DNA of 43,665 nucleotides, taken from positions 1 through 43,665 of the forward strand of contig WSXY01000015.1 of NCBI GenBank assembly GCA_009773565.1. Direction: 5' to 3'. Below, piece by piece: positions 3,375 through 24,540 of the stretch. The translations under genes were made by a program, and so were the position numbers. Source of the DNA: Actinomycetota bacterium (lineage in GTDB: Bacteria > Actinomycetota > Coriobacteriia > Anaerosomatales > Anaerosomataceae). The notes below the pieces were generated by a model. That model saw only the letters and a list, made by a program, of their open reading frames with translations. It made no database searches and had not been told where the DNA came from. Numbering within the stretch: position 1 is the first letter of the stretch; each line of letters begins with the position of its first letter.

Positions 3375-3515
3375 GATTTGTCGCCCGATTTGTCGCCCAA
3401 ATACCTGGTGATTGTTGGTACTCGTTGGTACCTATTGGGACTCGCCGCAGCTCCGCTGTACCAACGAGTCCCAACGAGTCCCAATAGTCACAAGCACTTT
3501 CAGGATTCGAATTCC
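3375..3515 (+). repeat. array repeat, copy 1 (core truncated at GAATTCC)
   Basis: Two identical 12-mers GATTTGTCGCCC (3375-3398) are followed by AAATACCTGG, an imperfect hairpin (3409-3491) of 10-bp units such as GTTGGTACTC, and the linker AAGCACTTTCA. The core GGATTCGAATTCC ends similarity at 3515; the TTGGGGGCACCA tRNA end seen in copies 3, 4 and 6 is absent. The fic block follows. Confidence 0.9.
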
Positions 3516-4885: not shown

Positions 4886-5025
4886 GATTTGTTGCCCGAT
4901 TTGTTGCCCAAATACATGGTACTTGCTGGTACTCGTTGGTACCTATTGGGACTCGCCGCAGCTCCGCTGTACCAACGAGTCCCAACGAGTCCCAATAGTC
5001 ACAAGCACTTTCAGGATTCGAATTC
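4886..5025 (+). repeat. array repeat, copy 2 (TTG variant, core truncated at GAATTC)
   Basis: Both 12-mers read GATTTGTTGCCC (4886-4909), so they agree with each other but differ from the TCG and GTG types. The hairpin follows (about 4918-5002) and the core TCAGGATTCGAATTC ends similarity at 5025. It sits directly upstream of fic on that gene's opposite strand and closes the fic block. Confidence 0.9.
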
Positions 5026-5109
5026 AGCTTAGAGGGGGTGTATCTGCCCACGTGCGGCTCAGGAGCACTCCCTGTTGCTCACAGTCCTGTTGGCCTTGCC
5101 TGCCCGCAC

Positions 5110-5133
5110 GTTCAAATCCCGTCAGCTCGATCA
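5110..5133 (+). other. tRNA- or tmRNA-3'-end-like fragment (possible old attachment site)
   Basis: GTTCAAATCCCGTCAGCTCG (5110-5129) plus ATCA resembles a T-arm plus acceptor 3' strand, closest in my reading to a tmRNA 3' end (...CCCGYCAGCTCCACCA). Bases upstream of the T loop do not pair with the 3' stem strand, as expected for a recombined fragment and not a working RNA. It lies 85 bp after repeat copy 2 and has a different sequence from that repeat's core, so it may be the scar of another integration. Confidence 0.35.
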
Positions 5134-5170
5134 TCACGATTGCGAGCACACTTGCGTGCTCTTTGAAACG

Positions 5171-5200
5171 AAACGGGACGGCCAGATGGCCGTCCCGTTT
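5171..5200. terminator. strong hairpin between repeat copy 2 and the AraC gene
   Basis: AAACGGGACGGCC and GGCCGTCCCGTTT form a perfect 13-bp stem with an AGAT loop. The A/T at both ends of the stem allow termination in either direction. It lies about 57 bp past the stop of the minus-strand AraC gene and is probably that gene's terminator. A smaller hairpin (GAGCAC...GTGCTC) lies just to its left (about 5144-5161). Confidence 0.75.
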
Positions 5201-5256
5201 CACATTCCTGTCCGGCGGTTGCGGGCGTGCCCGACGGTTGACTTGGCAGTGAGGCG

Positions 5257-6132
5257 CTACTGGGGCAGCGCCACCCGGTCCGACGCGGGTGTCACTCCAA
5301 ACATGCGCCGGTACTCGCGGCTGAACTGCGTCGAGCTTGCGTAGCCCACACGCTGTGCCGCCTCCTGGGCTGTCACGCCCTCGGCGGTGAGCAGCGCGCG
5401 GGCGCGGTGGAGGCGGACCTGCTTGACGTACTGCACAGGCGTGGTGGCGGTCACTTCCCGGAAGGTGTGGTGGAAGGTTGATGTGCCCATGTTCGCCTCG
5501 CGGGCCAGTGATGGGACGTCCAGGTCGTGGGCGTAGTCCTGATGGATGCGGCGGAGCACCCTGGCGATGTGGCCGTAGCGGCCAGCGTTCGACGTGGCGA
5601 GGCGCAGCACCTCGCCGTTCTCGCTCACCAGGATGCGATAGACGATCTCGCGCACGGTCTGCAGGCCGAGGATCCGCGCGTCTGCAGGGGAGGCGAGCGC
5701 GAGAGCGAGTCGCTCGGCGGCGTCCATCACCTCGGCGGTGAACGGCGATGAGTTCACGAATGTTGAGGGTTCGATGCCGGGGATGTCGCCCATCTCCAGG
5801 AGGAGCTCGCCCACGAGGATGGGGTCGATGTTGATCACGAGGCCGAGGAGCGGTTCGTCCTCGGAAGCCGTGGTTGCGCACTCCATGGGCATGGGTGCGG
5901 AGAGCAGCAGGTAGTTGTTCGCGTCGTACACGTACGATTCGTCGCCGAGCCACACGCGCTTGGAGCCCTGCGCCACTATGACGATCCGCGGCGTGTAGAT
6001 GATCGGGCGCCGGTCCGTGCGCTCGGTGGCACGCATGTACTCGACGCCGGACACGGGCGAGCGCGAGAAGCCGTTTACCTTGATGAGCGGTTCCAGCAGT
6101 TCGGCGAGGCGGGTCTTGGCGGCATTCGGCAT
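5257..6132 (-). CDS. AraC-family regulator, YqhC-like, divergent from yqhD
   Basis: A 291-residue regulator with an N-terminal AraC_N-type cupin domain (about 20-175, with the VWLGDESYVYDANNYLLLSA block) and a C-terminal double HTH (about 190-285: DVPSLAREANMGTSTFHHTF, then AQEAAQRVGYASSTQFSREY). It is transcribed away from the yqhD operon. In E. coli the AraC protein YqhC sits beside and activates yqhD-dkgA in response to reactive aldehydes; the same neighbourhood here supports the same role. It is strongly similar along its whole length to the AraC gene at 13022-13894, the first gene of the next block. ATG6132 follows GAAGGAA. Confidence 0.85.
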   Translation of the reverse strand: MPNAAKTRLAELLEPLIKVNGFSRSPVSGVEYMRATERTDRRPIIYTPRIVIVAQGSKRVWLGDESYVYDANNYLLLSAPMPMECATTASEDEPLLGLVINIDPILVGELLLEMGDIPGIEPSTFVNSSPFTAEVMDAAERLALALASPADARILGLQTVREIVYRILVSENGEVLRLATSNAGRYGHIARVLRRIHQDYAHDLDVPSLAREANMGTSTFHHTFREVTATTPVQYVKQVRLHRARALLTAEGVTAQEAAQRVGYASSTQFSREYRRMFGVTPASDRVALPQ

Positions 6133-6183
6133 GGGGCAATTCCTTCACGTGAGATGCAGTGGACGAGATACTACGCCGCACAA

Positions 6184-6203
6184 GAGAAATAGGCAAGAAC
6201 GAC
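6184..6203. promoter_or_regulatory. candidate AraC/YqhC-type operator in the divergent promoter region
   Basis: GAAATAGGCAAGAACGAC lies between the AraC gene and yqhD. A close relative (GGAATAGGCTACGAATCGAC) occurs at 13949-13966 in the same position relative to the paralogous AraC gene, and both precede divergently transcribed oxidoreductase or hydrolase genes. Conservation between two otherwise unrelated intergenic regions makes it a good binding-site candidate. Confidence 0.5.
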
Positions 6204-6291
6204 GCAGTCCTGTGTATGGGATTGAGCGGGAGTCGCTAGTAGGGTGTACCTCGGCACCACTCCACTCTGGACGGAAGGCAGAGGTACACGC

Positions 6292-7458
6292 ATGCTTGAT
6301 TTCGACTATCACAACCCCACGCGCATCATCTTCGGCAAGGACCGGCTCGATACGATCGGGTCGCTCGTGCCGGCCGATGCGCGGGTGCTCATCACGTACG
6401 GTGGCGGTAGCGCCAAGCGCTCGGGAATCATCGAGCGGGTGCGTGAGACGCTCGCGGGCAGAGAGGTCCACGAGTTCGGCGGGATCGAGCCGAACCCGCA
6501 GTACGACACGCTCATGAAGGCCGTCGAGGTCGTCCGTGCGGAGAACATCGACTTCCTGCTGGCGGTGGGAGGCGGCTCCGTCATCGACGGCACCAAGTTC
6601 GTCGCGCTTGCCGCGCACTACGATGGCGATGCGGCGGAACTCCTCGCGTACGGCCTCGCGCCGATCACCGCCGATGCGGCCAAGCGCGTTCTCCCGCTCG
6701 GCACGGTGCTCACGCTGCCGGCGACGGGCTCGGAGATGAACAGTGGCGCCGTGATCAGCCGCGGCGAGGTGAAGTATCCGGTGATGAGCGGCCTCGTGTT
6801 CCCGGTGTTCTCGATCCTGGATCCCACGCTCACGTTCTCGCTGCCGGAGACGCAGGTGGCGAACGGCGTGGTGGACGCGTTCGTGCACGTGACCGAGCAG
6901 TACATCACCTACCCCGTGGGCGCCGCCGTGCAGGACAGGATCGCCGAGGCGGTCCTGAAGACGCTCATCGACGTGGGACCCACCTCCGTTGCCGAGCCCG
7001 AGGACTACGCTGCACGCGCGAACCACGAGTGGAGCGCGACGCTCGCGCTGTGCGGCATCGTGGGCGCCGGCGTCCCGCAGGACTGGGCGACGCACATGAT
7101 CGGCCACACGCTCACTGCGCTCTTCGGCATCGATCACGGCAAGTCGCTCGCGATCGTGCACCCGTCGCTGCTCGATGTGCGCCGCGAGCAGAAGCGCGAG
7201 AAGCTGCTGCAGTACGCCGCTCGCGTGTGGGACCTCGACATGGGCGACGACGACGCGCGCATCGACGGAGCAATCGGCAGGACCAGGGCGTTCTTCGAGA
7301 GCCTCGGCATAGCCACACGCCTCGGCTCTTACGGCGTGACCGAGGCCGACATCCCGCGCGTCATCGAGAGCCTCGAGGCACAGGGCATGACAGCACTCGG
7401 CGAGACGGGCGATCTCACGCTCGAGCACGTGGATGCGATCCTGCGCGCTTCGCTCTAA
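6292..7458 (+). CDS. yqhD: YqhD-type iron-containing alcohol dehydrogenase / NADPH aldehyde reductase
   Basis: A 388-residue protein, almost exactly the length of E. coli YqhD and recognisably similar throughout (LITYGGGSAKRSG, FGGIEPNPQYDTLM, LLAVGGGSVIDGTKF, PATGSEMNSGAVIS, GAGVPQDWATHM). Metal ligands are the Asp and His of VVDAFVHVTEQ and the two His of THMIGHTLTALFGIDHGK. YqhD reduces many short-chain and reactive aldehydes with NADPH in the cytosol. ATG6292 aligns with the start of YqhD and follows a GGAAGG...GAGG purine run. It is the first gene of a six-gene operon (6292-12536) controlled, by inference, by the divergent AraC protein. Confidence 0.93.
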   Translation: MLDFDYHNPTRIIFGKDRLDTIGSLVPADARVLITYGGGSAKRSGIIERVRETLAGREVHEFGGIEPNPQYDTLMKAVEVVRAENIDFLLAVGGGSVIDGTKFVALAAHYDGDAAELLAYGLAPITADAAKRVLPLGTVLTLPATGSEMNSGAVISRGEVKYPVMSGLVFPVFSILDPTLTFSLPETQVANGVVDAFVHVTEQYITYPVGAAVQDRIAEAVLKTLIDVGPTSVAEPEDYAARANHEWSATLALCGIVGAGVPQDWATHMIGHTLTALFGIDHGKSLAIVHPSLLDVRREQKREKLLQYAARVWDLDMGDDDARIDGAIGRTRAFFESLGIATRLGSYGVTEADIPRVIESLEAQGMTALGETGDLTLEHVDAILRASL

Positions 7459-7494
7459 GCGACGCCGAATCACAAGATCAAAGGGGTAGATGAG

Positions 7495-8937
7495 TTGGCT
7501 TCTTCAATGAGTTCGCATCCGGGCACCGGCCGCCGTACGACGGCCGTGCTCGCGATCATCCTGGTGAGCTACGTGATGATCATCCTCGACACGTCCATCG
7601 TGATCGCGGGGCTGCCGAAGATCCAGGAGACGCTCGGTTTCTCGGCCACGCACCTCTCGTGGATACAGAGCGCGTACACGCTGGCGTTCGGCGGGTGCCT
7701 GCTGCTGGCGGCGCGTGCCGGCGATATCCTGGGACGCAGGCGGATGTTCCTCGCGGGGCTCGGGATCTTCACCGTGGCATCGCTCGGGGTCGGCACGGCG
7801 CAGACCGTCGCATGGATGCTTGCCTCGCGCGCGGTTCAGGGCGTCGGCGCGGCGATCCTGGCACCGACAACGCTGGCGCTTCTGCAGTCGAACTTCGCCG
7901 AGGGGCCGGAGCGCACCCGAGCAGTCGCCTACTATGGCGCCGCTGCGGGCATCGGCGCGAGCATCGGGCTCGTGTTGGGTGGCGTCCTCGCAGACTGGGT
8001 ATCGTGGCGTGTCGGGTTCTTCATCAACCTGCCGATCGGCGTGCTGCTGGCGTTGGGCACTGCCCGGTATGTGGCGGAGACCGAGCGGCACACGGGTCAC
8101 TTCGATCTGCGTGGCGCGATTCTGTCCACGGCGGGAATGTTCGCACTCGTCTTCGGCGTGGTGCGGTCGGCGGATACGGGATGGGCGGACGTGTCGACCG
8201 GACTCTCGCTTATGGCTGGAGTGGCCTTGCTCGTGATGTTCATTGTGAGCGAGTCGAAGGCGCGTCAGCCGATCATGCCGCTGCGGCTCTTCGCGAGCCG
8301 GGAGCGTTCCGGGGCATACGCTGGTCGTCTGCTGTTCCTTGGCGCGATGGTGGGATTCTTCTTCTTCACCACGCAGTTCATGCAGGGCGTGCTGGGCTTC
8401 GACGCGTTCCAGGCGGGTCTCGGATTCCTCCCGATGACACTGGTGAACTTCGCGGTGGCGTTGAATGTGCCGCGCCTCACGCGGCGCTTCGGTAATGGAC
8501 CACTACTCGCAGCCGGGCTGGCCATCACCTTCGTGGGGATGGCATGGCTGAGCCGTCTCGGCGCAGATTCGACGTACCTGCGCGACGTTGCGCTGCCGAT
8601 GGTTCTGATCGGCCTCGGACAGGGCTGTGCCTTGAGTCCGCTCACCGTCGCGGGTGTCAGTGGTGTAGCCGAGGAGGATGCCGGCGCCGCTTCCGGACTC
8701 GTGAACGTCGCGCACCAGCTCGGCCTGTCGCTCGGACTGAGCGCGTCGGTGGTAGCCTTCGCCAGGGCGAGTGCGGTTGCCGGAGGATCCGCAGCTCTCG
8801 CGAGCGGCGTGTCGGCGGCGCTGACGGCGGGAGCGGTCATGCTGGCGTTGTCATGGATCGTGGTGATGATGGCGATAGTCCGGCCGCGCGTGGATGGTGG
8901 ACAGCATGCCAGGACAAGCGGGGTGCAGGCGACGTGA
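7495..8937 (+). CDS. MFS drug/metabolite exporter, DHA2 (EmrB/QacA) family
   Basis: A 480-residue polytopic protein with the 14-helix layout of DHA2 transporters. It has the motif-C-like LDTSIVIAGLPKIQ segment in helix 1, GDILGRRRMFLAG (motif A) after helix 2, and IGASIGLVLGGVLAD (motif C of antiporters) in helix 5. It probably exports a toxic small molecule using the proton gradient. The TTG7495 start is placed 7 nt after AAAGGGG; an in-frame ATG7507 is the alternative. It follows yqhD by 36 bp, and its stop overlaps the ltrA-like start as GTGA, so the genes are coupled. Confidence 0.88.
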   Translation: MASSMSSHPGTGRRTTAVLAIILVSYVMIILDTSIVIAGLPKIQETLGFSATHLSWIQSAYTLAFGGCLLLAARAGDILGRRRMFLAGLGIFTVASLGVGTAQTVAWMLASRAVQGVGAAILAPTTLALLQSNFAEGPERTRAVAYYGAAAGIGASIGLVLGGVLADWVSWRVGFFINLPIGVLLALGTARYVAETERHTGHFDLRGAILSTAGMFALVFGVVRSADTGWADVSTGLSLMAGVALLVMFIVSESKARQPIMPLRLFASRERSGAYAGRLLFLGAMVGFFFFTTQFMQGVLGFDAFQAGLGFLPMTLVNFAVALNVPRLTRRFGNGPLLAAGLAITFVGMAWLSRLGADSTYLRDVALPMVLIGLGQGCALSPLTVAGVSGVAEEDAGAASGLVNVAHQLGLSLGLSASVVAFARASAVAGGSAALASGVSAALTAGAVMLALSWIVVMMAIVRPRVDGGQHARTSGVQAT

Positions 8938-10103
8938 GCACTCTTCCCGTGATCGGCAAGCGCGACGGGGTCACGCCGGTGGAACTGCTCTTCGACCTGG
9001 TCTTCGTGTTTGCGATGTCGGAGATCGCGCATCACTTGCTCGGGCATCTCACCACCCGGGGTCTGATCGAGGCGACCATCCTGCTGGTGGGGGTCTTCCT
9101 GGTCTGGCTCAACACGAGCTGGATCGCCACCGTTCTTCACGCCCAGGAACCGAGAGTACTGACGATGATCCTCGTCACCATGCTACTCAGCATGTTCATG
9201 AACGCCTCGATTGGGCGAGCCTACGGGTCGATGGGTCTCATGTTCGCGCTGCCCCTCGTCTTGGGCCAGGTGGGTAGGAGCGCTTGGATGGTCGCGGCAT
9301 CCCCAAACGAGGTGTACCGGGAGCACTACCGCAGGACGGTGGGGTGGCAGCTCATCAGCGCTCCATTGTGGCTGATCGGTGCGGTCAGTCCGCCTGAGGC
9401 GCGACTCTCGTACTGGGGAGCGGCGACCGTCATCGATCTCATCGGGACCTGGCTCGCACACCCGGTTCCTGGCCAGCGACTGCACTCGGTATACCTTGAG
9501 TTCGATGCCGACCACATGCTCGAACGCTGCAGGCTGCTTCTCATCGTCGCGTTCGGTGAGACGGTCGTTGCGATGGGAAGCGCCCTTGCGTCCTCCCGAA
9601 TGACTGGACTGACCGTGTTCGCGGGCGTCGTCGCCTTCGCCGGGATGATCGCGCTGTGGGCACTGTACTTCGGCAGTGGCGTTCGAGCCACGCTCGACCA
9701 CATCGCCCGGACGTGCGATCCGGTCAAGGCGAGCCGACTGGCCGGCAACGCCCTCGTTGTGATGGTCGCGGGGTTGATCGGAATCGCAGTGGGAAGCGAG
9801 ATCGTCATCGGTGCACCTTCGGCCCGGGGTGACTCCCTTGTCGTTGGCGCCTTGCTGTTCGGTGGTGCGATGGCCGGACTCGTGGCACACGCATGGTACT
9901 TGCGGGCCGTTCCGCGGCTCTCGGCCCGGTGGATCCTGTTCGGAGCCGCAGGTCTGGCATTCGCCGGTCTGGCGACCGCGTCTGCCCCTGGCGTTGTGCA
10001 GCTCGGGATCTGGAGTGTCGGCCTGACGGCGCTGGCGGTTGCCGACACGCGTGCGGGCAGACGATTCGATTCGGCAGATCCGCCAGTGGCGGACTGTGAC
10101 TGA
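8934..10103 (+). CDS. low temperature requirement protein A (LtrA) family membrane protein
   Basis: A 389-residue polytopic protein. The N-terminal VTPVELLFDLVFVFAMSEIA and FGETVVAMG blocks and the LLIVAFGETVV helix are typical of the LtrA family (PF06772). The biochemical function is not established for the family. The GTG8934 start overlaps the MFS stop by 4 bp, so the two membrane proteins are translationally coupled and may act together. Frames running upstream of 8934 are inside the MFS gene and were not used. Confidence 0.83.
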   Translation: MSTLPVIGKRDGVTPVELLFDLVFVFAMSEIAHHLLGHLTTRGLIEATILLVGVFLVWLNTSWIATVLHAQEPRVLTMILVTMLLSMFMNASIGRAYGSMGLMFALPLVLGQVGRSAWMVAASPNEVYREHYRRTVGWQLISAPLWLIGAVSPPEARLSYWGAATVIDLIGTWLAHPVPGQRLHSVYLEFDADHMLERCRLLLIVAFGETVVAMGSALASSRMTGLTVFAGVVAFAGMIALWALYFGSGVRATLDHIARTCDPVKASRLAGNALVVMVAGLIGIAVGSEIVIGAPSARGDSLVVGALLFGGAMAGLVAHAWYLRAVPRLSARWILFGAAGLAFAGLATASAPGVVQLGIWSVGLTALAVADTRAGRRFDSADPPVADCD

Positions 10104-10117
10104 GAGAGGACCGAACC

Positions 10118-12536
<2,419 letters not shown>

Positions 12537-12567
12537 ACCGGGCCTAATCGGGACTCGGTCTGTCCAC

Positions 12568-12721
12568 GATTTGTCGCCCGATTTGTCGCCCAAATACATG
12601 GTGACTGTTGGTACTCGTTGGTACCTATTGGGACTCACCGCAGCTCCGCTGTACCAATGAGTCCCAACGAGTCCCAATAGTCACAAGCACTTTCAGGATT
12701 CGAATTCCCTTGGGGGCACCA
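12568..12721 (+). repeat. array repeat, copy 3 (full length, with tRNA 3' end)
   Basis: Paired GATTTGTCGCCC 12-mers (12568-12591), hairpin 12601-12684 whose ends GTGACT/AGTCAC pair exactly, a central mini-hairpin CAGC-TCC-GCTG, the core TTTCAGGATTCGAATTCC, then TTGGGGGCACCA ending at 12721. The tail is a tRNA T-loop (TTCGAAT), 3' T-stem, acceptor strand and CCA. The 5' T-stem bases do not pair fully (CAGGA against TCCCT), marking the junction of element and tRNA sequence. Confidence 0.92.
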
Positions 12722-12921
12722 TAAAACCGCAGGTCAGGGGCTTGTGAATCCCTGAAGCGTGCTTGAAATCGGGCACCAAATCGTGCCGTCGTGAGGGCCC
12801 TCTAGAGGGCAGAACCGCAGCTCAGAGGCCATTTCAGCCCAATCTTGGTGCCAAAAAATCCCTGTTGCAGAGGATCGGCCATCGACATCGGCTTGGTGCC
12901 CGATTTGGTGCCCGAAACAAG
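12722..12921 (+). repeat. degenerate repeat module after copy 3
   Basis: This intergenic stretch holds decayed pieces of the array repeat. The TAAAACCGCAGGTCAGGGG start and the TCAGGG/CCCTGA hairpin follow the tRNA end. An inverted GATTTGGTGCCCGATTT occurs at about 12771-12787, a GGCAGAACCGCAGCTCAGAGG block at about 12808-12828, TTGGTGCCAAAAAATCCCTG at about 12845-12864, and direct TTGGTGCCCGATTTGGTGCC at about 12895-12914. The same blocks in the same order follow copy 4. No gene is seen here. The remaining 100 bp to the AraC stop shows nothing recognisable. Confidence 0.7.
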
Positions 12922-13021
12922 ACAAAGTGTGTGTCGGGCTCGAACACCCCCCGTCCCCGTGCGAGCACGACGGTGACCCCTGTACTCTCAATCCTGAGGT
13001 CGTTATGGAAGCAGTCGTGAC

Positions 13022-13894
13022 CTACGCGGTTGTCAGTGCCCGATCAGCTGCTGGACTCACGCCGAACATACGCCGGTACTCGCGTCCGAACTGGGACGGG
13101 CTAACGTAACCGACGCTGTACGCGGCTTCTTGGACACTCACGCCCTCTGACATGAGGAGCGTCCGAGCGCGGTGCAGTCTCGTTTGCTTGATGTACTGCA
13201 GCGGTGTCGTAGAGGTCACGTCGCGAAATGCGTGATGGAATGTCGACGTTCCCATGTTCGCCTCGCGGGCTAGAGAAGACACATCGAGTTCCGATGCGTA
13301 GTCATCATGAATGCGTCGCAAGACGCGAGCGATCTGTCCCTGTCGGCCCGAACTGGTCGCGACCATTCGAACGGTGTCGCCCTGAGGTCCGAGCAGTGCA
13401 TGGAACACAATCTCTCGGATGATCTGCCTGCCGAGGATCCGCGCATGAAGCGGTGAGTTCAAGACCGATGCGAGGCGGGTCGCCGCATCCAGGAGGTCGT
13501 GCGTGACGTTCGTCGCGCCCACGACGCGTGCTTGTTTCTCGTCGGTGGGTCGGTGATCGGTGTCCAGCAAGAGCTCGCCCACGGTGATTGGGTCTAGCTC
13601 GATCGTGAGGGCGAGCAGTGGTTCTCCGGGTGTAGGCGTCGCCTCACAGTCCATCGGCATGGGAGCCGAAAGAACTAGGTAGTTGTTGGCGTCATAGTCG
13701 AAGCGTTCCTCGCCAAGCCACACGCTCTTACGTCCCCGGGCGATGACGATCACAGAGGGCGAGTACATCATCGGGGTCCGAGGAATCCGCTCGTCAAACC
13801 GTGAGACTGTCACTCCCGGGATGGCCGTGGCCGTCTGCCCGGACTTGGGAGCGAGCTGCGAGATCAGTTCTGCGAGTTCCGTTGATTGGGGCAT
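13022..13894 (-). CDS. AraC-family regulator, paralogue of the YqhC-like protein
   Basis: A 290-residue protein with the same domains as the regulator at 5257-6132: AraC_N cupin (VWLGEERFDYDANNYLVLSA) and a C-terminal double HTH (DVSSLAREANMGTSTFHHAF, then SVGYVSPSQFGREYRRMFG). The two are similar from end to end, and both are the first gene after a repeat, on the minus strand, with a divergent enzyme gene. It probably controls the hydrolase/FMN-reductase pair at 14004-15541. The inducer is unknown; paralogy suggests a reactive carbonyl or related electrophile. Confidence 0.85.
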   Translation of the reverse strand: MPQSTELAELISQLAPKSGQTATAIPGVTVSRFDERIPRTPMMYSPSVIVIARGRKSVWLGEERFDYDANNYLVLSAPMPMDCEATPTPGEPLLALTIELDPITVGELLLDTDHRPTDEKQARVVGATNVTHDLLDAATRLASVLNSPLHARILGRQIIREIVFHALLGPQGDTVRMVATSSGRQGQIARVLRRIHDDYASELDVSSLAREANMGTSTFHHAFRDVTSTTPLQYIKQTRLHRARTLLMSEGVSVQEAAYSVGYVSPSQFGREYRRMFGVSPAADRALTTA

Positions 13895-13946
13895 GTCGTC
13901 CTCTATTCCGTAAGTACCTCAACGGGGCAATCATACCGTAGGCGAC

Positions 13947-13966
13947 AGGAATAGGCTACGAATCGA
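13947..13966. promoter_or_regulatory. candidate AraC-type operator upstream of the second AraC gene
   Basis: AGGAATAGGCTACGAATCGA lies 53 bp upstream of the AraC start and about 40 bp before the hydrolase. It shares the GAAATAGGC-A-GAA-CGAC pattern with the site at 6184-6203. Confidence 0.5.
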
Positions 13967-14003
13967 CAACCACTGACCTTCCTACTGCAGGAAGCAGCAC
14001 GTA

Positions 14004-15008
14004 TTGTCGACAGCATCAGATGCCTCTCGGATTGCGAGACACAAGACTAGGAATGGAGTGGTGAAGGTGGACGACTACATCTTCGATTTGCGGCCTGATG
14101 TGACCCGTAAGCCGGTCTCATACAAGAACCGCTACGGAATCACGATTGCAGCGGACCTCTATCTGCCGCGTGATTTCGATGAGTCGACGAGCCATGCGGC
14201 GCTCGTCATCGGCGCACCGTACGGCGGCGTCAAGGAGCAGGGACCTGGCATCTACGCGCAGGAGATGGCGGCACGCGGGTTCGTCGCGTTGACGTTCGAC
14301 CCGTCGTTCAATGGATACAGTGGTGGCGAGCCGCGCTACGTGACGTCCCCTGACATCTTCGTCGAGGACATCAGCGCCGGCGTCGACTTCCTGGGTACAC
14401 GACCGTTTGTGGACCGCGAGCGCATCGGTGCCATCGGCATGTGCGGAAGCGGTGCCTTCAGCTTGTGTGCCGCACAGGTCGACCGTCGCATCAAAGCCGT
14501 CGCGACGACCAGCATGTGGGACCATCACCGCTTCTACCACGAGGGCTGGGAAGACTGCTATACCGACGAAGACCGCAACAAGATCCTCGACGACTTGGGC
14601 GAGCAGCGCTACGTCGACTTCGAGAACCCACAGCCTGCGCTGACACCACGTGACGCTCCGTTCGTGGACGAGAACACCGACGACATTGGCCGGGAGTTCG
14701 GCGAGTTCTACTCGGCTCCTCGTGGATCCCATCACAACGCGTTGACTCAGCACACCCGCACGAGCGTTCTGTCGTTCATGAACTTCCCGCTGCTCGCGTA
14801 CGTACACACCATCTCTCCGCGTCCGATCCTCATCGTCGTGGGCGAGAAGGCTTTCTCCCGCTACCTCGGCGAAGGTGCCTTCGAGAAGGCTGCTGAGCCC
14901 AAAGAGCTCTACATCGTTCCTGGCGCCGGCCATGTCGATCTGTATGACAAGACCGACCTCATCCCGTTCGACAAGCTCGAAGCGTTCTTCAAGGAGAACT
15001 TGGCGTGA
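14004..15008 (+). CDS. alpha/beta hydrolase, YcjY-like, cysteine in the nucleophile elbow
   Basis: A hydrolase of up to 334 residues. The nucleophile elbow reads IGMCGSGAFSLCAAQ, with Cys where most family members have Ser, as in dienelactone hydrolases. GAGHVDLYD supplies the catalytic His near the C-terminus. An N-terminal PVSYKNRYGITIAADLYLPRDF block is typical of the YcjY/S15-like group often found beside AraC regulators. The function is probably ester or lactone hydrolysis; the substrate is unknown. TTG14004 gives the longest form. GTG14058 or GTG14061, just after AGGAATGGAG, are credible starts that would remove 18-19 residues. The stop overlaps the FMN reductase start as GTGA. Confidence 0.8.
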   Translation: MSTASDASRIARHKTRNGVVKVDDYIFDLRPDVTRKPVSYKNRYGITIAADLYLPRDFDESTSHAALVIGAPYGGVKEQGPGIYAQEMAARGFVALTFDPSFNGYSGGEPRYVTSPDIFVEDISAGVDFLGTRPFVDRERIGAIGMCGSGAFSLCAAQVDRRIKAVATTSMWDHHRFYHEGWEDCYTDEDRNKILDDLGEQRYVDFENPQPALTPRDAPFVDENTDDIGREFGEFYSAPRGSHHNALTQHTRTSVLSFMNFPLLAYVHTISPRPILIVVGEKAFSRYLGEGAFEKAAEPKELYIVPGAGHVDLYDKTDLIPFDKLEAFFKENLA

Positions 15009-15541
15009 AAGTAGTCGTCATCAGCGGTAGCTATCGCCGGAAGGGAGCTTCGGCATTCTTGGCGGATCGGTTCATCGATGGAGCCCGCGAAGCGGGTCAT
15101 GAGGTGTTCCGGTTTGATGCTGCCTTCGAGACCGTTGGTGGCTGCCGAGGTTGCGATTACTGTGCGCGAGGAACGAAGCCGTGCGTGCAGAACGACGGGA
15201 TGTCCGTCTTGAATCCGCACCTTGTGGATGCAGACTTCGTCGCATTCGTGACGCCGCTTCACCACTTCCACATGTCGGCGCAGCTGAAGGCGGTGATCGA
15301 CCGGTTCTACGCGAACGATGCCCGACTGATGGGAGGTAAGCGGGCGGTGTTGCGGGCAACAGCCAAGAGCGGGAGTTCGCGGACCATTCAAGGGCTGGTC
15401 GACTCGTACATGACAATCATCAGGTATCTGAGTTGGGCAAACGCCGGCGAAGTGCTGGCGCTTGGGTGCGGCGATCGCAATCTCATCGAGGTCTCAGTAT
15501 TTCCAGACGCTGCGTGTCGGCTGGGAGTGAGCCTGAAGTAG
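15005..15541 (+). CDS. NADPH-dependent FMN reductase / iron-sulfur flavoprotein-like
   Basis: A 178-residue flavodoxin-fold protein with the FMN phosphate loop VVISGSYRRKGAS at the N-terminus, then a Cys-rich GGCRGCDYCARGTKPCVQND block as in the NADPH-dependent FMN reductase/iron-sulfur flavoprotein family, and FVTPLHHFHMSAQLKAVIDR for flavin contacts. The Cys spacing (CxxCxxC...C) could hold an Fe-S cluster or serve redox chemistry. GTG15005 overlaps the hydrolase stop, so the two are coupled, probably acting on one substrate. The following 264 bp to repeat copy 4 holds no recognisable gene. Confidence 0.83.
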   Translation: MKVVVISGSYRRKGASAFLADRFIDGAREAGHEVFRFDAAFETVGGCRGCDYCARGTKPCVQNDGMSVLNPHLVDADFVAFVTPLHHFHMSAQLKAVIDRFYANDARLMGGKRAVLRATAKSGSSRTIQGLVDSYMTIIRYLSWANAGEVLALGCGDRNLIEVSVFPDAACRLGVSLK

Positions 15542-15805
15542 GCGGATAGCACTGGGTCATGTGCGGCGTCATCGCGGTTGCCGCCGAGTTGGTTCGGGCG
15601 ACGACGAAGGCAGTTCGTGACACATAGGGCACAACAGGATCGCTTCTACCGATCTGACCACTACTTGTACGGGGACTCTTAATCCCAAGGTCACTGCTCG
15701 AAAGCCCCCCGTGAGCGGGTCCACTGAGTCCGGCCCTCCAACGCCGTCACATCGTCGCGGAGGGCAGTCGACTGAATGTTCTCGACGACGCTCTGCCATG
15801 CCCTC

Positions 15806-15959
15806 GATTTGGTGCCCGATTTGGTGCCCAAATACCTGGTGACTGTTGGTACTCGTTGGTGACTATTGGGACTCACCGCAGCTCCGCCGTACCAACGAGT
15901 CCCAATAGTCACCAACAGTCACCAACACAATCAGGATTCGAATTCCCTTGGGGGCACCA
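15806..15959 (+). repeat. array repeat, copy 4 (GTG variant, altered hairpin units)
   Basis: Paired GATTTGGTGCCC 12-mers (15806-15829), hairpin arms (about 15839-15926), core TCAGGATTCGAATTCCCTTG and tRNA end GGGGGCACCA to 15959. The hairpin units differ from other copies: the left arm has GTTGGTGACT in place of GTTGGTACCT, and the right arm has GTCACCAAC twice. The new left unit still pairs with the new right unit over 20 bp (GTTGGTGACTATTGGGACTC). Confidence 0.92.
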
Positions 15960-16250
15960 TAAAACCTCAGGTCAAAGGCCTGAAATTCCCTGTTGCGTGC
16001 ATAGAATCGGGCTACAATTTGGGTCCGGATTTCGTCGTTTTGGGGCCTCATTGGGGGCAAAGCCGCAGGTCAGAAGCCATTTCAGCCCCAATTTGTCGCC
16101 CAAAAATCCCTGTTGCTGATAATCGGAGTGCGAGATCGAGTTGTCGCCCGATTTGTCGCCCAAATACGCGGCGAAAGGTCGGGCTGCGATACCGATGTCG
16201 CCTGCTCACTTGAAACCCGATCCATGAGAGCAAAGCCGCAGCTCAGAGGC
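15960..16250 (+). repeat. degenerate repeat module after copy 4
   Basis: This region parallels 12722-12921. It has TAAAACCTCAGGTCAAAGG, a TTGGGGGCAAAGCCGCAGGT block at about 16054-16073 resembling a damaged tRNA end plus flank, AATTTGTCGCCCAAAAATCC at about 16089-16108, and TTGTCGCCCGATTTGTCGCC at about 16141-16160. A last GCAAAGCCGCAGCTCAGAGG lies at about 16230-16249. These look like stacked remnants of earlier repeat copies. No gene is supported in this stretch. Confidence 0.7.
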
Positions 16251-16358: not shown

Positions 16359-17407
16359 CATTCTCTCGGGCGCTCGACGAACTTCGCTCGCGCCTACCCC
16401 AGACGTGGCGCGTGGACGTCATCGATCAGCGGGCCTATCTCCCCGGGCCGGACGCGGTCGTGCGTGTCGCCGGACCGGACGGGCAAGCGTCGATCCTGTT
16501 GATAGAGGTGAAGAGTCGGCTCGATCCCAAAGACGTCGACCCGCTCGTATCTCGATTCGAGATGCGACTCTGGCAGAACAGTGAAGCGACCCCGGTCGTT
16601 GTGGCTCGCTACCTCGGCGAACGGACGCGCGAGTCTTTGCGCGCGCGGGAAGCCGGCTACATCGACCTGACTGGCAACATGTACCTGCGACTCAATGCTC
16701 CGGCCGTGGCGATCGAGCGGGCCGGCGCCGACAAGGATCCCGAGCCGACGCAGCGTCCCGCGCGCTCTCTGAAGGGGGCCAAGGCCGGTCGGCTCGTGAG
16801 GACGCTCGCGGACTTCACCCCGCCGCTCGGAACACGTGAAATCGCGAAGATCGCGCAAATCGACGCCGGCTACGTCTCGCGTCTGCTCGCGCTGCTCGAA
16901 CGAGACGACTACATAGGGCGCGAACCTCGCGGCCCGGTCACCCGCATCGACTGGCCCAACCTTCTCCGCGCGTGGACCAAGGACTACTCGCTCGATTCCT
17001 CCAACCTTGCCACGTCCTATCTGCAGCCTCGAGGCCTTCCGGCGTTGCTGGACGGCCTGCGCCGGCAGGACAGCGAGGATGGTCTGACCTACGCGATCTC
17101 CGGCTCGCTTGCCGCCGCTCGGCGGGCTCCGATCGCTCCGGCACGCCTCGGTGTCGTCTACGTCGAGCGCCTCGACGAGGCCGCGCAAGTGCTCGGTCTG
17201 CTCCCCGCCGAGACCGGGGCGAATGTGCTTCTCGTCGAGCCGTTCGACAGCGTCGTCTTCGAGCGCACGGTTCTCGACGAGGGCTTGAGGTACGTGGCCC
17301 CTTCGCAGATCGCCGCCGACCTGCTCACGTCTTCCGGCCGCGGGCCGGAAGAAGCGGAAGCGCTCATCGAGTGGATGCTCTCCGACGAGGAGGCCTGGCG
17401 TGTATAG
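16325..17407 (+). CDS. AbiEi-like antitoxin/regulator: PD-(D/E)xK-like domain plus winged helix
   Basis: A protein of about 360 residues. The N-terminal third has a nuclease-fold pattern (PDAVVRVAG, then SILLIEVKSRLDP: Asp, Glu and Lys spaced as in PD-(D/E)xK proteins). The middle (about 150-205) has winged-helix features (LGTREIAKIAQIDAGYVSRL). It overlaps by 8 bp the nucleotidyltransferase gene, the toxin-like partner, which is the arrangement of AbiE type IV toxin-antitoxin operons. Predicted role: DNA-binding antitoxin that represses the operon. The PD-(D/E)xK-like domain is not part of classical AbiEi, so a direct nuclease or RNA role is possible. ATG16325 or ATG16328 is chosen because the promoter predicts a leaderless message. 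Confidence 0.65.
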   Translation: MMRNTTTSDNSTFSRALDELRSRLPQTWRVDVIDQRAYLPGPDAVVRVAGPDGQASILLIEVKSRLDPKDVDPLVSRFEMRLWQNSEATPVVVARYLGERTRESLRAREAGYIDLTGNMYLRLNAPAVAIERAGADKDPEPTQRPARSLKGAKAGRLVRTLADFTPPLGTREIAKIAQIDAGYVSRLLALLERDDYIGREPRGPVTRIDWPNLLRAWTKDYSLDSSNLATSYLQPRGLPALLDGLRRQDSEDGLTYAISGSLAAARRAPIAPARLGVVYVERLDEAAQVLGLLPAETGANVLLVEPFDSVVFERTVLDEGLRYVAPSQIAADLLTSSGRGPEEAEALIEWMLSDEEAWRV

Positions 17408-18269
17408 CGAGGAGTACGTCGTCGCCCGCAGGACTCTTCTCGACGCGCTCGATGCACTCGAGGGCCACCGCGACGCACTCGTGCTCGTCGGCGCGCAGGC
17501 GATCTACCTCCACACCGGCGCCGCCCAGTTCGCCGTCGCCGAGTTCACGACTGATGGCGACGTCGCCATCGACCCGCGCCTTCTGTCGGGTGATCCCGAG
17601 ATCGCTTCGGCGATGCGCAAGGCCAAGTTCTTTCTCGATGAGCGCGACGGCAGGGAACTGGTGGGCGTGTGGGCCTCGATGCGAGAGATTGCCGGCGTGC
17701 CTGCGAAGGTGACCGTCGATCTTCTCGTGCCCGACGCCCTCGGGGGCGCAGGGCGGCGAGCCGCCCGGGTGCCACAGCACGAGAAGGGCTCGATGCTCAA
17801 GGTCCACGGGTTAGAGGCGGCGCTGGTGGACAATATCGTGATGGGCATCGGTGCGCTCGAAGTGACGGATACACGCAGCTTCTCCATGAAGGTGGCCGGT
17901 CCCACGGCACTGCTGATCTCCAAGACGATCAAGCTGTCCGAGCGGGTGACGGCCGGTGCGCTCGAACGAGGACGACCCGACAGAGTGAAGCCCAAGGATG
18001 CACTTGACGTGCTTCGACTGTTGCAGGCGATCCCGAGCGTTCGGCTGGCTGAGGGCATTGCGGGTCTGTTGGAAGATGAGACTGCCGGGCCCGTCACCTC
18101 AGAGGCGCTCAGCAAACTGCCGGATCTCTTCGGCAACCCCGACTCTCCAGGCAGTCAGCTCGCGGCCGAGGCAGCAGCGCCAGAGCCGCCCGACGTGATC
18201 GCAGCATCGTGCGCCGCGCTGTGTCGAGAGCTGCTTGACGCACTCCGCGCGCAGGGAATTGACGGCTGA
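17400..18269 (+). CDS. nucleotidyltransferase, AbiEii/MNT-like (probable toxin)
   Basis: A 289-residue protein. An N-terminal nucleotidyltransferase motif LVGAQAIYLHTG (about residues 27-38) is followed by TTDGDVAID (about 50-58), giving the hG..(x)n..DxD pattern of the pol-beta-like superfamily used by AbiEii toxins. The C-terminal half is helical (KTIKLSERV, KDALDVLRLLQAI), as expected. AbiEii-type enzymes transfer nucleotides to tRNA or another target and stop growth. GTG17400 overlaps the antitoxin gene end (8 bp), ensuring co-translation. The pair is the only cargo of this block, and repeat copy 5 begins 68 bp later. Confidence 0.7.
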   Translation: MYSEEYVVARRTLLDALDALEGHRDALVLVGAQAIYLHTGAAQFAVAEFTTDGDVAIDPRLLSGDPEIASAMRKAKFFLDERDGRELVGVWASMREIAGVPAKVTVDLLVPDALGGAGRRAARVPQHEKGSMLKVHGLEAALVDNIVMGIGALEVTDTRSFSMKVAGPTALLISKTIKLSERVTAGALERGRPDRVKPKDALDVLRLLQAIPSVRLAEGIAGLLEDETAGPVTSEALSKLPDLFGNPDSPGSQLAAEAAAPEPPDVIAASCAALCRELLDALRAQGIDG

Positions 18270-18337: not shown

Positions 18338-18462
18338 GATTTGTCGCCCGATTTGTCGCCCAAATACATGGTGACTGTTGGTACTCGTTGGTACCTATTG
18401 GGACTCACCGCAGCTTCGCTGTATCAACGAGTCCCAACGAGTCCCAATAGTCACAAGCACAA
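18338..18462 (+). repeat. array repeat, copy 5 (core missing, fused to a truncated gene)
   Basis: Paired GATTTGTCGCCC 12-mers (18338-18361) and hairpin (18371-18454) match copy 3 closely. After AAGCACAA similarity stops: the GGATTCGAATTC core and tRNA end are absent. The next base pairs belong to a minus-strand CPBP gene that is cut at this point. Confidence 0.88.
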
Positions 18463-18559
18463 TTCCTGCCCCCGCGAGGACCAGCGGCAGCCAGATGAGC
18501 CACGACCACGCGAACGTGACCACGAAGAACCGGTAGGGGAACCGCTTGTCCTCTGCCAT
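18463..18559 (-). pseudogene. 5' fragment of a CPBP intramembrane protease gene, cut by repeat copy 5
   Basis: The ATG at 18559 overlaps the hydrolase stop as ATGA, so this was the next gene of the operon. Only about 32 residues remain (MAEDKRFPYRFFVVTFAWSW, then LIWLPLVL), typical of the first helix of a CPBP/CAAX protease. At about 18462 the sequence becomes repeat copy 5, and the frame runs on into it to a stop at 18395. The catalytic EExxxR and HxxxN motifs are lost. The break gives the exact boundary between foreign block and repeat. Confidence 0.7.
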
Positions 18560-19713
18560 CAGTCCTCCTCGCTGGGGTCCGCGAGCCCGTTTGCGCCTGC
18601 CAGTACATCCGCCCGCATTATCTCGCACGTCTTCGCAGGCTCCTCGAACAGCGGGCTGTGCGCCGAGTGCTCGAACGTGTAGAAGCCCTTCAGCGGCGCG
18701 TCCAACTGCTCGTAGTAGGCCCTCGCCAGCGGATACGAGACGGTGTAGTCGTACGTGCCGTGCAGGAAGTAGATGGGGATCTCCAGCCGCGTGACCCTCT
18801 TGGTCAGGTCCGTCGCGAGCTCGACGCTCCACAGCTGTCTGCCGGAGACGATCTTGCCGCGCCACACGCTAATCTTCTCGCCCAGCGTATACTCCGGGCT
18901 TCGGAAGGACTCCAGGAGCAGACCGGTGACGATTGAGCGCATGTCGTGGGTCGTGCCGACGCCGAGGTCGTGCATCGCGACGTCACGGATCGAGTTGTAC
19001 GTGTCCGGCAGGGGGACCGAGTCACCGACCGCCGCTGCCTCCAGCTTCCGCGCCATGCCGGCGTTCCCGTTCGCTTCGAAGCGCTCGAGCATGTAGTCGT
19101 GCGCCAACTGCTCAGAGCGGAGCTGGTAGGACATCTGGGCAACGCCGATGTAGGCGTGGTACTTCTCCGGCGCCCGCGCGGCCGCCTGGATGCCGATGAA
19201 GGTGCCGCCCGAGTGCCCCATGAGGTAGATCTTGTCCTGGTCGAAGCGTTTGCGGAGGTAATCGGTCAGCGCCAGCGTGTCGGCCACGACCTGCTCCGCT
19301 GTCAGGGACTCCGGTGCCATGCCTGGGTTGAAAGACAGGCCCGAGCCGCGCTGCTCCCACCAGACCACGACGAAGTCCTCGTCGAGACCTGTGGGGTAAC
19401 GCTCGGTCAGGAAGTAGTCAGGCATGCCGCCATGGAGGTAGAGCAGCACCGGCTTACTCGCGCCCTTGCCCTTAATGAACATGCCCTGCTCGACACCGTT
19501 GATGGTGACGCGGGTCTTCTCCGAGATGCTGTCCGGCAACGGGCTCCCGTTGTCATCCACGAATGGCGTCGGCCGTCCTGGACTCAGGAGGAGCAGCACG
19601 CCCACAAGAACGAGTGCCGAAACCAGCAAGACGGAAGCGGCGATCAACATTACACACCCGACCTTTCGTGCGAACGTTTGGGCAGACGGCCCACGGCCTT
19701 CGCCACTAACCAT
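18559..19713 (-). CDS. membrane-anchored alpha/beta hydrolase (proline-iminopeptidase-like)
   Basis: A 384-residue protein with an N-terminal membrane anchor (about residues 15-45, VLLVSALVLVGVLLLL) and an exported alpha/beta hydrolase domain. LYLHGGMPDYF is the oxyanion-hole HGG motif, VVWWEQRGSGLS the following strand, LMGHSGGTFIG the nucleophile elbow (GHSGG), IYFLHGTYDYTV carries the acid and FEHSAHSPLFEEP the His. HGG plus WWEQRGSG resembles prolyl-aminopeptidase-like hydrolases. ATG19713 overlaps the upstream DUF4386 stop (ATGA), and the 3' end overlaps the truncated CPBP start in the same way. A longer start at 19776 is unlikely. Confidence 0.82.
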   Translation of the reverse strand: MVSGEGRGPSAQTFARKVGCVMLIAASVLLVSALVLVGVLLLLSPGRPTPFVDDNGSPLPDSISEKTRVTINGVEQGMFIKGKGASKPVLLYLHGGMPDYFLTERYPTGLDEDFVVVWWEQRGSGLSFNPGMAPESLTAEQVVADTLALTDYLRKRFDQDKIYLMGHSGGTFIGIQAAARAPEKYHAYIGVAQMSYQLRSEQLAHDYMLERFEANGNAGMARKLEAAAVGDSVPLPDTYNSIRDVAMHDLGVGTTHDMRSIVTGLLLESFRSPEYTLGEKISVWRGKIVSGRQLWSVELATDLTKRVTRLEIPIYFLHGTYDYTVSYPLARAYYEQLDAPLKGFYTFEHSAHSPLFEEPAKTCEIMRADVLAGANGLADPSEED

Positions 19714-20399
19714 CACTCGGTCTCCGGTCGTCTGTCGAGGGCTCGCACCATGACGATCCCGAGCCACAAGAACCACACGATCTGCAGCAGTCCGAACGCG
19801 GCTTCCAGTCCGCTCAACGCAGGCACCACTGAGAGGATCCCGGCTGCGCCGATTACCACACCCAGCCAGTTCAGGGCGCGTGGGAACACCTTCGCGCTAA
19901 GTGCGGTTGCGTTCAAGAGCAGAAACCAAACTCCGCCGAGGACTTCGCCACCGGATCCGCCCAGGGCCGAAGCTACGGGCTCGATCACCTGCCACGCCGC
20001 CACAGCCTGATCGGGGGCGGTGGCGTAGAGCCGGACCACCACTCCCATGCCGTAGTTGAACACCATGACGCTTGCCAGCAGAAGGCCGGCCCGAATGAGT
20101 CCCACGACCGTTGCGAACTGCGCTGTCGACGGCGCGTACTCCTTCAGGCGCTGGTGGATCGCCAGCGTCACAACGATCAGCGCGAGTGCGACGAACTCGA
20201 ACGAGACGACGTGCATCCAGTACATGCTGGCGTAGTTGTCCCTGAGCGAGATGACCTTCTGGATCGGGTCGACCACGCCGGGGTAGTTCACCAGGAAGAC
20301 GAAGTAGGGGATCGCCGCGAGGTACGCCACCGCGATGTAGAGTGCCGCGATACCGCCTGCCCTCTGCATCGCCGCACGGGCTCGAGCGTGTGCATCCAT
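19713..20399 (-). CDS. DUF4386-like six-helix membrane protein
   Basis: A 228-residue polytopic membrane protein. Helices are seen around AALYIAVAYLAAIPYFVFLV, FEFVALALIVVTLAI, VVGLIRAGLLLASVMVF, GGVWFLLLNATAL, WLGVVIGAAGILSVV and FGLLQIVWFLWLGIVM, with the conserved final W-G region of DUF4386 proteins. Function unknown. ATG20399 is four bases after the previous gene's stop, so the genes are coupled. It is the third gene of the operon downstream of the MalT-like regulator. Confidence 0.65.
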   Translation of the reverse strand: MDAHARARAAMQRAGGIAALYIAVAYLAAIPYFVFLVNYPGVVDPIQKVISLRDNYASMYWMHVVSFEFVALALIVVTLAIHQRLKEYAPSTAQFATVVGLIRAGLLLASVMVFNYGMGVVVRLYATAPDQAVAAWQVIEPVASALGGSGGEVLGGVWFLLLNATALSAKVFPRALNWLGVVIGAAGILSVVPALSGLEAAFGLLQIVWFLWLGIVMVRALDRRPETE

Positions 20400-20403
20400 G
20401 TGA

Positions 20404-21108
20404 CTACGCCTGGCTCTCGGCAACGGAGGCCAGTGCCCGCTGATCGAACCCCTTGGCGATCAACCAGATGGCCAGCGCCATCTCCTGGAGACCGATCGGG
20501 ATGTTGAGCACTGTGTTCACCGTCGTGAAGCCGAACTCCTGCGTGAAGCCCGCGATTACGGTCGAAACCATGAACAACATGATCGCGACGAGTCCCCAAC
20601 CCGACAGCCAGCGGGGAACGAGCCGCGACCTGTAGAGCACGACGTAGTACATGAATGCTCCAACGCCGAACGGGAGCAGCGCGAAGAACCCATGCACCCA
20701 CTCGCGCGCCGCGAGCACCAGATTCGAGGTCGTCATCGCCGAGGACAAGCCGGCGGAGCCTGCTGCTACAGCACCCTGACCCACAGTCAGCAGCGCAAGC
20801 AGCCCGAGGGCCCCGACCACGACGAACACGGCTTCGACCAACCTGCCGGCGACCGATCCAAGGGCCAGAGCCGGGTTGAGCTTCTTTAGGATCGGATACA
20901 GTCCGACGGCGATGCCCGCACCGGTCAGTGCCCACACGAACTCGATGAGCGCGGTCATCACCACGCGGTCTTCGTTCGCCACCAACTTGGCGATATCGAC
21001 GGGGGTGACCAGCGCACCGCCCAGTGGGACGATGCTCAGGATCGACGTTGCCGAGCACAGGATGAACAGGACCCCTACCGCGATCGCGCTTCCTCTGTAC
21101 GTTCGCAT
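20404..21108 (-). CDS. DUF4386-family membrane protein
   Basis: A 234-residue integral membrane protein with the DUF4386 layout: first helix with GVLFILCSATSILSIVPLGG, LIEFVWALTGAGIAVGLYPI, FVVVGALGLLALLTVGQG, FFALLPFGVGAFMYYVVLYR followed by SRLVPRWLSGWGL (the most typical family block), and two more helices. Function unknown. A textbook Shine-Dalgarno (AGAAGGAG) precedes ATG21108, one base after the end of the small gene at 21110. Frames extending to 21189 add an uninformative basic leader and were rejected. Confidence 0.78.
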   Translation of the reverse strand: MRTYRGSAIAVGVLFILCSATSILSIVPLGGALVTPVDIAKLVANEDRVVMTALIEFVWALTGAGIAVGLYPILKKLNPALALGSVAGRLVEAVFVVVGALGLLALLTVGQGAVAAGSAGLSSAMTTSNLVLAAREWVHGFFALLPFGVGAFMYYVVLYRSRLVPRWLSGWGLVAIMLFMVSTVIAGFTQEFGFTTVNTVLNIPIGLQEMALAIWLIAKGFDQRALASVAESQA

Positions 21109-21109
21109 C

Positions 21110-21394
21110 TCAATCTCCTTCTTCTGTTGGTTGTGGCGCCGGGTCGGCTTCAAGGCGATTGACCGAGACGAGCGGTATACCCAGGTCACGCACCTTCGTG
21201 AGGAGTCCGTGCAGCGCGGCCTGGTCGACTACGGCGCCCGTTAGGAGCGTGTCGCCGTTGTCTTCCAGTGCGATCGACAGGCCCGAGAACCAGCTTGTCC
21301 ACGCGTGTCCGAGATGGCCTTCGATCCTGATCTGGTAGACCGCGGGCCAAACCGGGTCTGTTCTCTCGCCTCGCCGCTCTGCCACTGTCCTCAT
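21110..21394 (-). CDS. small soluble protein, unknown role, regulator-linked
   Basis: A 94-residue protein with a conserved-looking core: YQIRIEGHLGHAWTSWFSGL, SIALEDNGDTLLTGAVVDQA and ALHGLLTKVRDLGIPLVSVN. I recall similar small proteins (EGHL...W..WF.GL...G.VVDQAALHGLL) beside LuxR-type or other regulator genes; their function is unknown to me. It is the first gene after the LuxR-type regulator, separated by 103 bp that should hold the operon promoter, and is followed immediately by the DUF4386 genes. ATG21394 is chosen; a longer frame reaches 21562 but overlaps the regulator gene. Confidence 0.65.
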   Translation of the reverse strand: MRTVAERRGERTDPVWPAVYQIRIEGHLGHAWTSWFSGLSIALEDNGDTLLTGAVVDQAALHGLLTKVRDLGIPLVSVNRLEADPAPQPTEEGD

Positions 21395-21497
21395 CGCCCT
21401 TGCCACCGGTTGAGGCGTCCAGGTGCGCCGCCTGGAAGAGCATGGGCGCGCGCCAGTACACTGACATCGGTCGAAGGGACTACTCAGGGGACTAATC

Positions 21498-24221: not shown

Positions 24222-24398
24222 GGGGCAATCATAGGGCAAAACCCGAGAAGCCGCGTGTCCACGCTGGATAGCGTGAACGTCAGCGGGTCTGCTGGGCCGC
24301 AGCGCCTACAAGCGCGTCTACTAGGCCCGACCACTGAACGACGACACGTCGTTAGGGACGGTAATCGTCTTATGGCGGCGCACTCTGTGTCTGCTCCG

Positions 24399-24540
24399 GA
24401 TTTGGTGCCCAAATACCTGGTGACTGTTGGTACTCGTTGGTACCTATTGGGACTCGCCGCAGCTCTTGAGTACCAACGAGTACCAGCGAGTCCCAATAGT
24501 CACAAGCACAATCAGGATTCGAATTCCCTTGGGGGCACCA
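24399..24540 (+). repeat. array repeat, copy 6 (one 12-mer only, full tRNA end)
   Basis: A single GATTTGGTGCCC (24399-24410), hairpin 24419-24502, core ATCAGGATTCGAATTCC and TTGGGGGCACCA to 24540. The hairpin tip reads CAGCTCTTGAG and has lost the CAGC-TCC-GCTG mini-stem. The tRNA end is followed by AAGATT, the flank shared with the terminal copy at 28661-28677. Confidence 0.92.

Follow-up and report, generated by a model that had tools for sequence, protein, structure and literature searches.

Repeats matching the 3' end of tRNA-Glu(TTC) as probable attachment sites of tandemly accreted, integrase-less cassettes in an actinobacterial order

The nearest described situation to the locus analysed here is the accretion of ICEs with CIMEs (PMC5704250). 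In Streptococcus thermophilus, the integrase-bearing conjugative element ICESt1 is found beside integrase-less elements which have kept their attachment sites, and such CIMEs arise by the decay of an ICE and then accrete (PMC5704250). Multiple tandem islands are also found downstream of the RNA gene ssrA in Dehalococcoides, where they are marked by a 20-bp direct repeat, and where 15 islands lack an integration module (PMC3146451). At the level of the recombination event itself, the crossover region of Tn1549 is a heteroduplex of 5-7 nt (PMC5871717). No earlier description of a system like the one below was found for the present order in the open-access papers searched.

The stretch of DNA analysed, referred to as the window, comprises 43,665 nucleotides of a draft actinobacterial genome and contains seven copies of a repeat (Table 1). 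The best reading is that they result from the tandem accretion of an ICE with CIME-like, integrase-less cassettes, in a form which is unusually widespread and modular. On this view the repeats are the attachment (att) sites used by integrative elements for which the tRNA-Glu(TTC) 3' end is the target. A head element beside the tRNA, integrative conjugative-like and 45-53 kb long, would supply the only matching tyrosine integrase, and the cassettes behind it would be integrase-less and no shorter than 1.4 kb (lengths run from 1.4 to 46 kb, with a median of 3.7 kb, for 60 cassettes in the arrays fetched), a typical cassette opening on the left with a right (P') arm and closing on the right with a P arm and the tRNA core. 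Exchange would probably take place in a word of about 6 nt after the CCA, with mismatch tolerated as in Tn916-like coupling sequences. This reading as a whole is considered likely.

The first-pass annotation had proposed that the repeat core is a tRNA 3' end and that the intact gene should be sought in the assembly. That proposal was borne out, the tRNA being tRNA-Glu: elsewhere in the assembly, contig C1 carries an intact tRNA-Glu(TTC) gene whose 3' end is exactly this one (G000:C1:79914, minus strand), where it adjoins tRNA-Lys. Exact copies of TTCCCTTGGGGGCACCA are restricted genome-wide to contigs C1, C7 and C20, other matches being weak and carrying three mismatches, and every complete site of the genome carries the core of tRNA-Glu. 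The full core GGATTCGAATTCCCTTGGGGGCACCA occurs exactly in copies 3, 4 and 6, and chance is excluded, since none of 100 shuffles matched the observed repeat counts. The positions and ends given earlier for the seven copies were confirmed (3, 4 and 6 complete; 1, 2, 5 and 7 reduced), as were the continuations TAAAACC after copies 3 and 4 and AAGATT after copies 6 and 7, and the remark that CAGGA and TCCCT pair in the three loop-proximal positions only. The same annotation had described a graded truncation, and here the reduced copies are real, but copies 1, 2 and 5 are explained by secondary deletion rather than as crossover products. The intact version of copy 1 in G015 is about 28 bp longer, copy 2 is missing about 109 bp of core and right arm relative to the C7 junction, and relatives of the copy 5 cassette in G039, G027 and G016 have a complete core; copies 1, 2 and 5 are, on these alignments, products of later decay by deletion and not of crossover.

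The sequence after both copies 6 and 7 had been taken for the flank of the tRNA gene, which holds for copy 7 but not for the continuation of copy 6: AAGATT is a junction word that the two copies have in common, and the native flank lies beyond copy 7 only. The sequence after copy 7 matches the right end of the array in G008, and the same CoA-ligase-like gene follows in both. Empty sites, in which tRNA-Glu is followed by a terminator, are present in G002, G003, G011, G012 and G017; in that of G002 a tRNA-Val lies about 108 bp past the tRNA-Glu, and a tRNA-Val is found downstream in the window as well. In one array (L180, G019:C61) the native terminator flank occurs in two diverged copies, one at the tRNA and one at the array end, as though a flank of foreign origin had come with one cassette. 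Window positions 5110-5199 resemble a tRNA-Pro 3' end with its terminator, with three mismatches to an intact tRNA-Pro at C10:41872, and are a relic of another tRNA target.

Table 1. Positions, in window coordinates, of the att copies, junction words, arms and cassettes.
Feature	Position	Strand	Remarks
att copy 1	3382..3515	+	P arm and core ending at GAATTCC (core part 3503-3515); ~28-bp deletion relative to G015
Cassette 1-2 cargo	3593..4780	-	Fic/DOC-family protein
att copy 2	4894..5025	+	P arm and core ending at GAATTC (core part 5014-5025); ~109-bp deletion, core end and proximal right arm gone
Cassette 2-3	5026..12574	.	AraC regulator, Fe-alcohol dehydrogenase, MFS, LtrA, flavodoxin, two aldo/keto reductases; no recombinase
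att copy 3, P arm	12575..12695	+	paired direct repeat GATTTGTCGCCC on the outside, followed by ~10-bp TTGGTACTCG-like motifs in an inverted array
att copy 3, 26-nt core	12696..12721	+	identical to 3' end of tRNA-Glu(TTC)
Junction word TAAAAC after copy 3	12722..12727	+	putative crossover/coupling sequence
Right (P') arm after copy 3	12728..12920	+	begins CGCAGGTCAG, ends in paired GATTTGGTGCCC repeat; belongs to next cassette
Cassette 3-4 cargo	12921..15813	.	AraC regulator, hydrolase, FMN-reductase-like
att copy 4	15814..15959	+	P arm and complete core (core 15934-15959)
Junction word TAAAAC after copy 4	15960..15965	+	
Right (P') arm after copy 4	15966..16170	+	
Cassette 4-5 cargo	16412..18269	+	two ORFs; second weakly NTP_transf_8
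att copy 5	18345..18462	+	P arm without core; core deleted here, complete in relatives
Cassette 5-6 cargo	18559..24221	-	serine hydrolase, two DUF4386, LuxR/MalT-type regulator
att copy 6	24396..24540	+	P arm and complete core (core 24515-24540)
Junction word AAGATT after copy 6	24541..24546	+	equal to copy 7 word; sequence beyond differs
Cassette 6-7 cargo	24810..28487	.	RibD_C, ABC-2 permease, ABC ATPase, DUF1048, PadR
Copy 7	28659..28677	+	core remnant without P arm (TTCCCTTGGGGGCACCA at 28661-28677); right end of array
Word AAGATT and native tRNA-Glu terminator flank	28678..28718	+	position equivalent to G008 CATTCTACGTAGACC...
Chromosomal right flank	28892..31090	+	ATP-grasp/succinyl-CoA-ligase-like gene; adjoins array end in G008 and G015 too

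A P arm of about 120 bp is joined to the core at 11 places in the genome, on C1, C7 and C20, with the same orientation within contigs; if these contigs adjoin, an order taken from the draft genome, the array would extend over about 131 kb. Within the arm, direct repeats GATTTG(TC/GT/TT)GCCC form a pair, and TTGGTACTCG-like motifs form an inverted array, whose spacing of about 10 bp suggests double-stranded protein binding. Within a junction the core is followed by about 6 variable bases and then by a right arm of about 200 bp starting C(G/T)CAGGTCAGAG, while the junction nearest the tRNA has the right arm only. The tandem repeats GATTTGnnGCCC at the far left of the P arm (for example at window 12579-12602) are of the same variant within a site in 45 of 46 pairs, and the variants (TC/TC, GT/GT, TT/TT) differ from site to site. 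The idea that a cassette's two arms match in their outer repeat variants was rejected (12 of 23, P=0.08), and the version based on the inner repeats was weak also. Many right arms contain a perfect hairpin of the type TAGCCCGATTTCGAG-TG-CGAAATCGGGCTA, as at junctions C1:34795 and C1:5195, and some cassettes start with a tRNA-type terminator in place of the right arm; both may restore termination after the tRNA.

The window's segments contain no integrase (no PF00589 match) and are flanked by junctions of arm, core and P' arm. Six PF00589 matches were obtained genome-wide, and the single one within the array lies beside the tRNA, at C1:79214. This integrase retains the catalytic R, K, HxxR, H and Y, and its reading frame ends inside the antisense strand of the tRNA (VPPREFESLLPP); in the circle the frame would close with VPPREFES. 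Its similarity to the Tn1549 Int is recognisable (phmmer E about 1e-6, weaker than to two other integrase structures), though its membership of that family is unproven. Outside the order, the relatives of the integrase are mostly those of phages and Streptomyces, with about 30% identity, so that likening its mechanism to that of Tn916 is an analogy. Assignment to a known integrase family was tried and rejected, no NCBIfam model scoring above its cut-off; a viral origin was likewise rejected, core and integrase both being absent from IMG/VR.

The segment between the tRNA and the next att site is 45-53 kb long in four genomes and is conserved at 84-92% DNA identity. It contains genes for RadC, ParA/ParB-like proteins, a MobP3 relaxase (above cut-off), a VirB4-like ATPase, NlpC/P60 and a coupling ATPase, and because the relaxase, the VirB4-like ATPase and other such genes are present, this head segment (45 kb in the present genome) is probably an ICE. 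Wherever the collected junctions include the ICE-type right arm belonging to an intact integrase gene, the tRNA precedes it. A further gene, P0002 (L038:17763-18662), overlaps the integrase start, is conserved in the ICEs compared and encodes a C-terminal zinc-finger-like motif (CPxCG...CSDRCRKR); its product is a possible accessory or directionality factor. A fragment homologous to the coupling-protein gene was recognised in C7, and this fragment in the C7 and C1 arrays is an ICE remnant. Decayed ICEs would be a further source of integrase-less cassettes.

Besides that fragment, the cargo of C7 and C1 includes P-type ATPases, cupredoxin and DsbD-like proteins, and the window also holds an IS3-type transposase. 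Defence cargo was considered and rejected, as none of 10 C7 and window proteins had a PADLOC match. Integron-like attC motifs (RYYYAAC ... GTTRRRY, about 96 nt) occur inside the array at window 648-743, 1008-1103 and 1889-1984, with a similar motif in the G013 array, and a true integron integrase (481 bits, TIGR02249) is encoded elsewhere in the genome, at C3:99419.

Of 396 genomes of the class, 33 have the arm, and these all belong to one order; across families the arm is about 90% identical. The named relatives are Coriobacteriia/Actinobacteria MAGs. At the sequence level, movement of cassettes between genera is demonstrated. A P-type-ATPase cassette in G000 and G015 is 99.8% identical over 3.4 kb, against 76% for the flanking chromosome, and the identity stops exactly at the last core base, after which the sequences diverge. 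G008 and G023 have two tail cassettes in common (96.9% over 8.7 kb; flank 80%), further cassettes lying between the tRNA and this tail in G008. Cassette 1-2 recurs at 90-97% identity in G015, G008, G013, G007 and G044, and cassette 4-5 at 84-87% in G039, G027 and G016. An integrase of about 90% identity was found in 8 of 61 genomes searched, the present genome counted; most array-bearing genomes lack it, and the arrays there may be largely static or may be served by another enzyme. The wider significance of these patterns is that genes are exchanged, via a defined att site, across an uncultured order known largely from MAGs.

A natural insertion is provided by one pair of relatives, representing one event. 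In G058 the sequence tRNA-Glu-CATTTCCTCAGGTCAAAG is uninterrupted, while in G045 an integrase-bearing insert of 9,898 bp lies exactly at the tRNA-Glu core, with flanks 97-100% identical to those of G058. The insert is flanked by CATTTCCTCAGGTCA at both ends, and the word CATTTCCT at both ends is that of the target. The two cases G045 and G008 point to insertion mainly at the tRNA end.

The first-pass annotation had placed the crossover near the GGATTCGAATTC palindrome; this placement was not supported, the data pointing instead to the word of about 6 nt after the CCA. For the 122 junction pairs with right arms identical to at least 90%, the word has an identity of 0.52 (all pairs: 0.47), the core one of 0.99 and the bases after the word mostly one of 0.9-1.0; the word is unlinked to the left arm as well (0.49 against 0.42). 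Neighbouring junctions have equal words in 10 of 57 cases against 3.3 expected (P=0.001; P=0.0002 with shuffling within genomes), where these word tests include sequences of common ancestry, which are not independent. The word is mostly 6 nt long, rarely 4 or 7, and at junctions with identical adjoining 70 nt the words disagree at most positions (CGTTTT in G008, TATAAC in G000_B, AAAC in L102). Because the word is unlinked to both arms, tends to be common to neighbours and is the same at both ends of the insert, strand exchange probably occurs within it, and the partners need not match; a tolerated heteroduplex, as in Tn1549, fits this pattern. A word unlinked to both flanks is a population-level signature which locates the likely strand-exchange point without experiment.

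The T-loop is a common sub-location of integrases, and a crossover near GGATTCGAATTC, with the word as a neutral spacer, would accord with this, as it would with the start of arm/tRNA identity at GGATTC and with the break of several truncated copies within or just before the left half of the core. It is disfavoured because it predicts a word that moves with the right arm, which the word does not; words differ in most bases beside identical 70 nt, the target's word stands at both ends of the G045 insertion, and the truncations examined are accounted for by deletion, so that this alternative is improbable. A more substantial competitor, though still unlikely, is the accretion of fossils, in which full elements inserted repeatedly and independently at tRNA-Glu and each later lost its integrase, with no service in trans. 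Integrase C-terminal relics and coupling-protein (T4CP) fragments at several array junctions, the deletions that broke several cores and the lack of a close integrase in most arrays would all follow from such a history. Small cassettes without a mobility gene, however, are found repeatedly in different genera at 87-99.8% identity, beside different neighbours and with arms and cores intact, and the arms are maintained at about 90% identity across families.

The single integrase at one end, the one site per cassette and the large inverted repeat in the P arm could also be read as the marks of attC-like sites which fold as single strands, in a true relative of integrons. This is highly improbable, as the sites are tRNA-derived, compensatory change was found in none of 22 predicted pairs of the P-arm hairpin, the P-arm mutations are concentrated mainly on one half, and the integrase scores 28 bits against the 265-bit cut-off for integron integrases. 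That the repeats, numerous and intergenic as they are, form a dispersed REP/MITE-like family with no role in integration is hardly credible in the face of an exact tRNA core, two different arms and a clean 9.9-kb insertion at the core.

Under the preferred reading of ICE and cassette accretion, the head integrase probably recognises the cassette sites in trans, and therefore cassettes could be excised, exchanged and stacked; recombination between these sites, its chemistry and the circular intermediates are inferred. If action in trans is real, tandem accretion works as an integron-like cassette system, with multi-gene blocks such as those for metal-transporter ATPases. The fuller proposal of an integron-like, tRNA-anchored capture system, with an ICE integrase serving in trans, homology-independent exchange at the word, growth mainly at the tRNA end and an order-wide pool of cassettes, is put forward tentatively, the chances being somewhat against it. 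What is new here is the order-wide common arm, the small cargo-only cassettes that move between genera and the unlinked word.

Compared with the ICE/CIME situation, the present locus is alike in that segments without integration genes (no PF00589 match) keep their att sites, and in that a co-located element has an integrase at the same tRNA-Glu core together with a MobP3 relaxase and VirB4-like genes. It differs in having up to 11 arm-bearing sites per genome and an order-wide common att arm, in the exchange of small cargo-only cassettes between genera, and in the heterologous crossover word at the tRNA end. The ssrA islands of Dehalococcoides likewise stand in tandem behind an RNA gene and share a repeat, 15 of them lacking an integration module, but they use a serine recombinase (DsiB), many of them carry integration modules, and they lie at ssrA instead of tRNA-Glu (PMC3146451). 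Tn916, Tn1545 and Tn1549 have a non-homologous crossover region of 5-7 nt and variable length (PMC5871717, PMC11838328), to which the sequence patterns of the word correspond; unlike the elements at the single tRNA gene here, they insert at many sites, and the present integrase is only distantly similar to theirs. Tycheposons and additive flexible islands resemble the array in being anchored at tRNAs, in having a tyrosine recombinase or repeated tRNA 3' ends, and in the variability of their cargo, while the parts of the source consulted describe no common arms of about 120 bp, conjugation genes or junction word for them (PMC10872708). Integrons, finally, also have a single recombinase at one end and cassettes in an array with one site each. 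The sites here, in contrast, would be double-stranded and are tRNA-derived, the cassettes are long, multi-gene and of mixed orientation, the integrase is not an IntI (28.4 bits against the TIGR02249 cut-off of 265), and the P arm lacks the compensatory changes (0 of 22 pairs) that a folded single strand of the attC type would be expected to leave.
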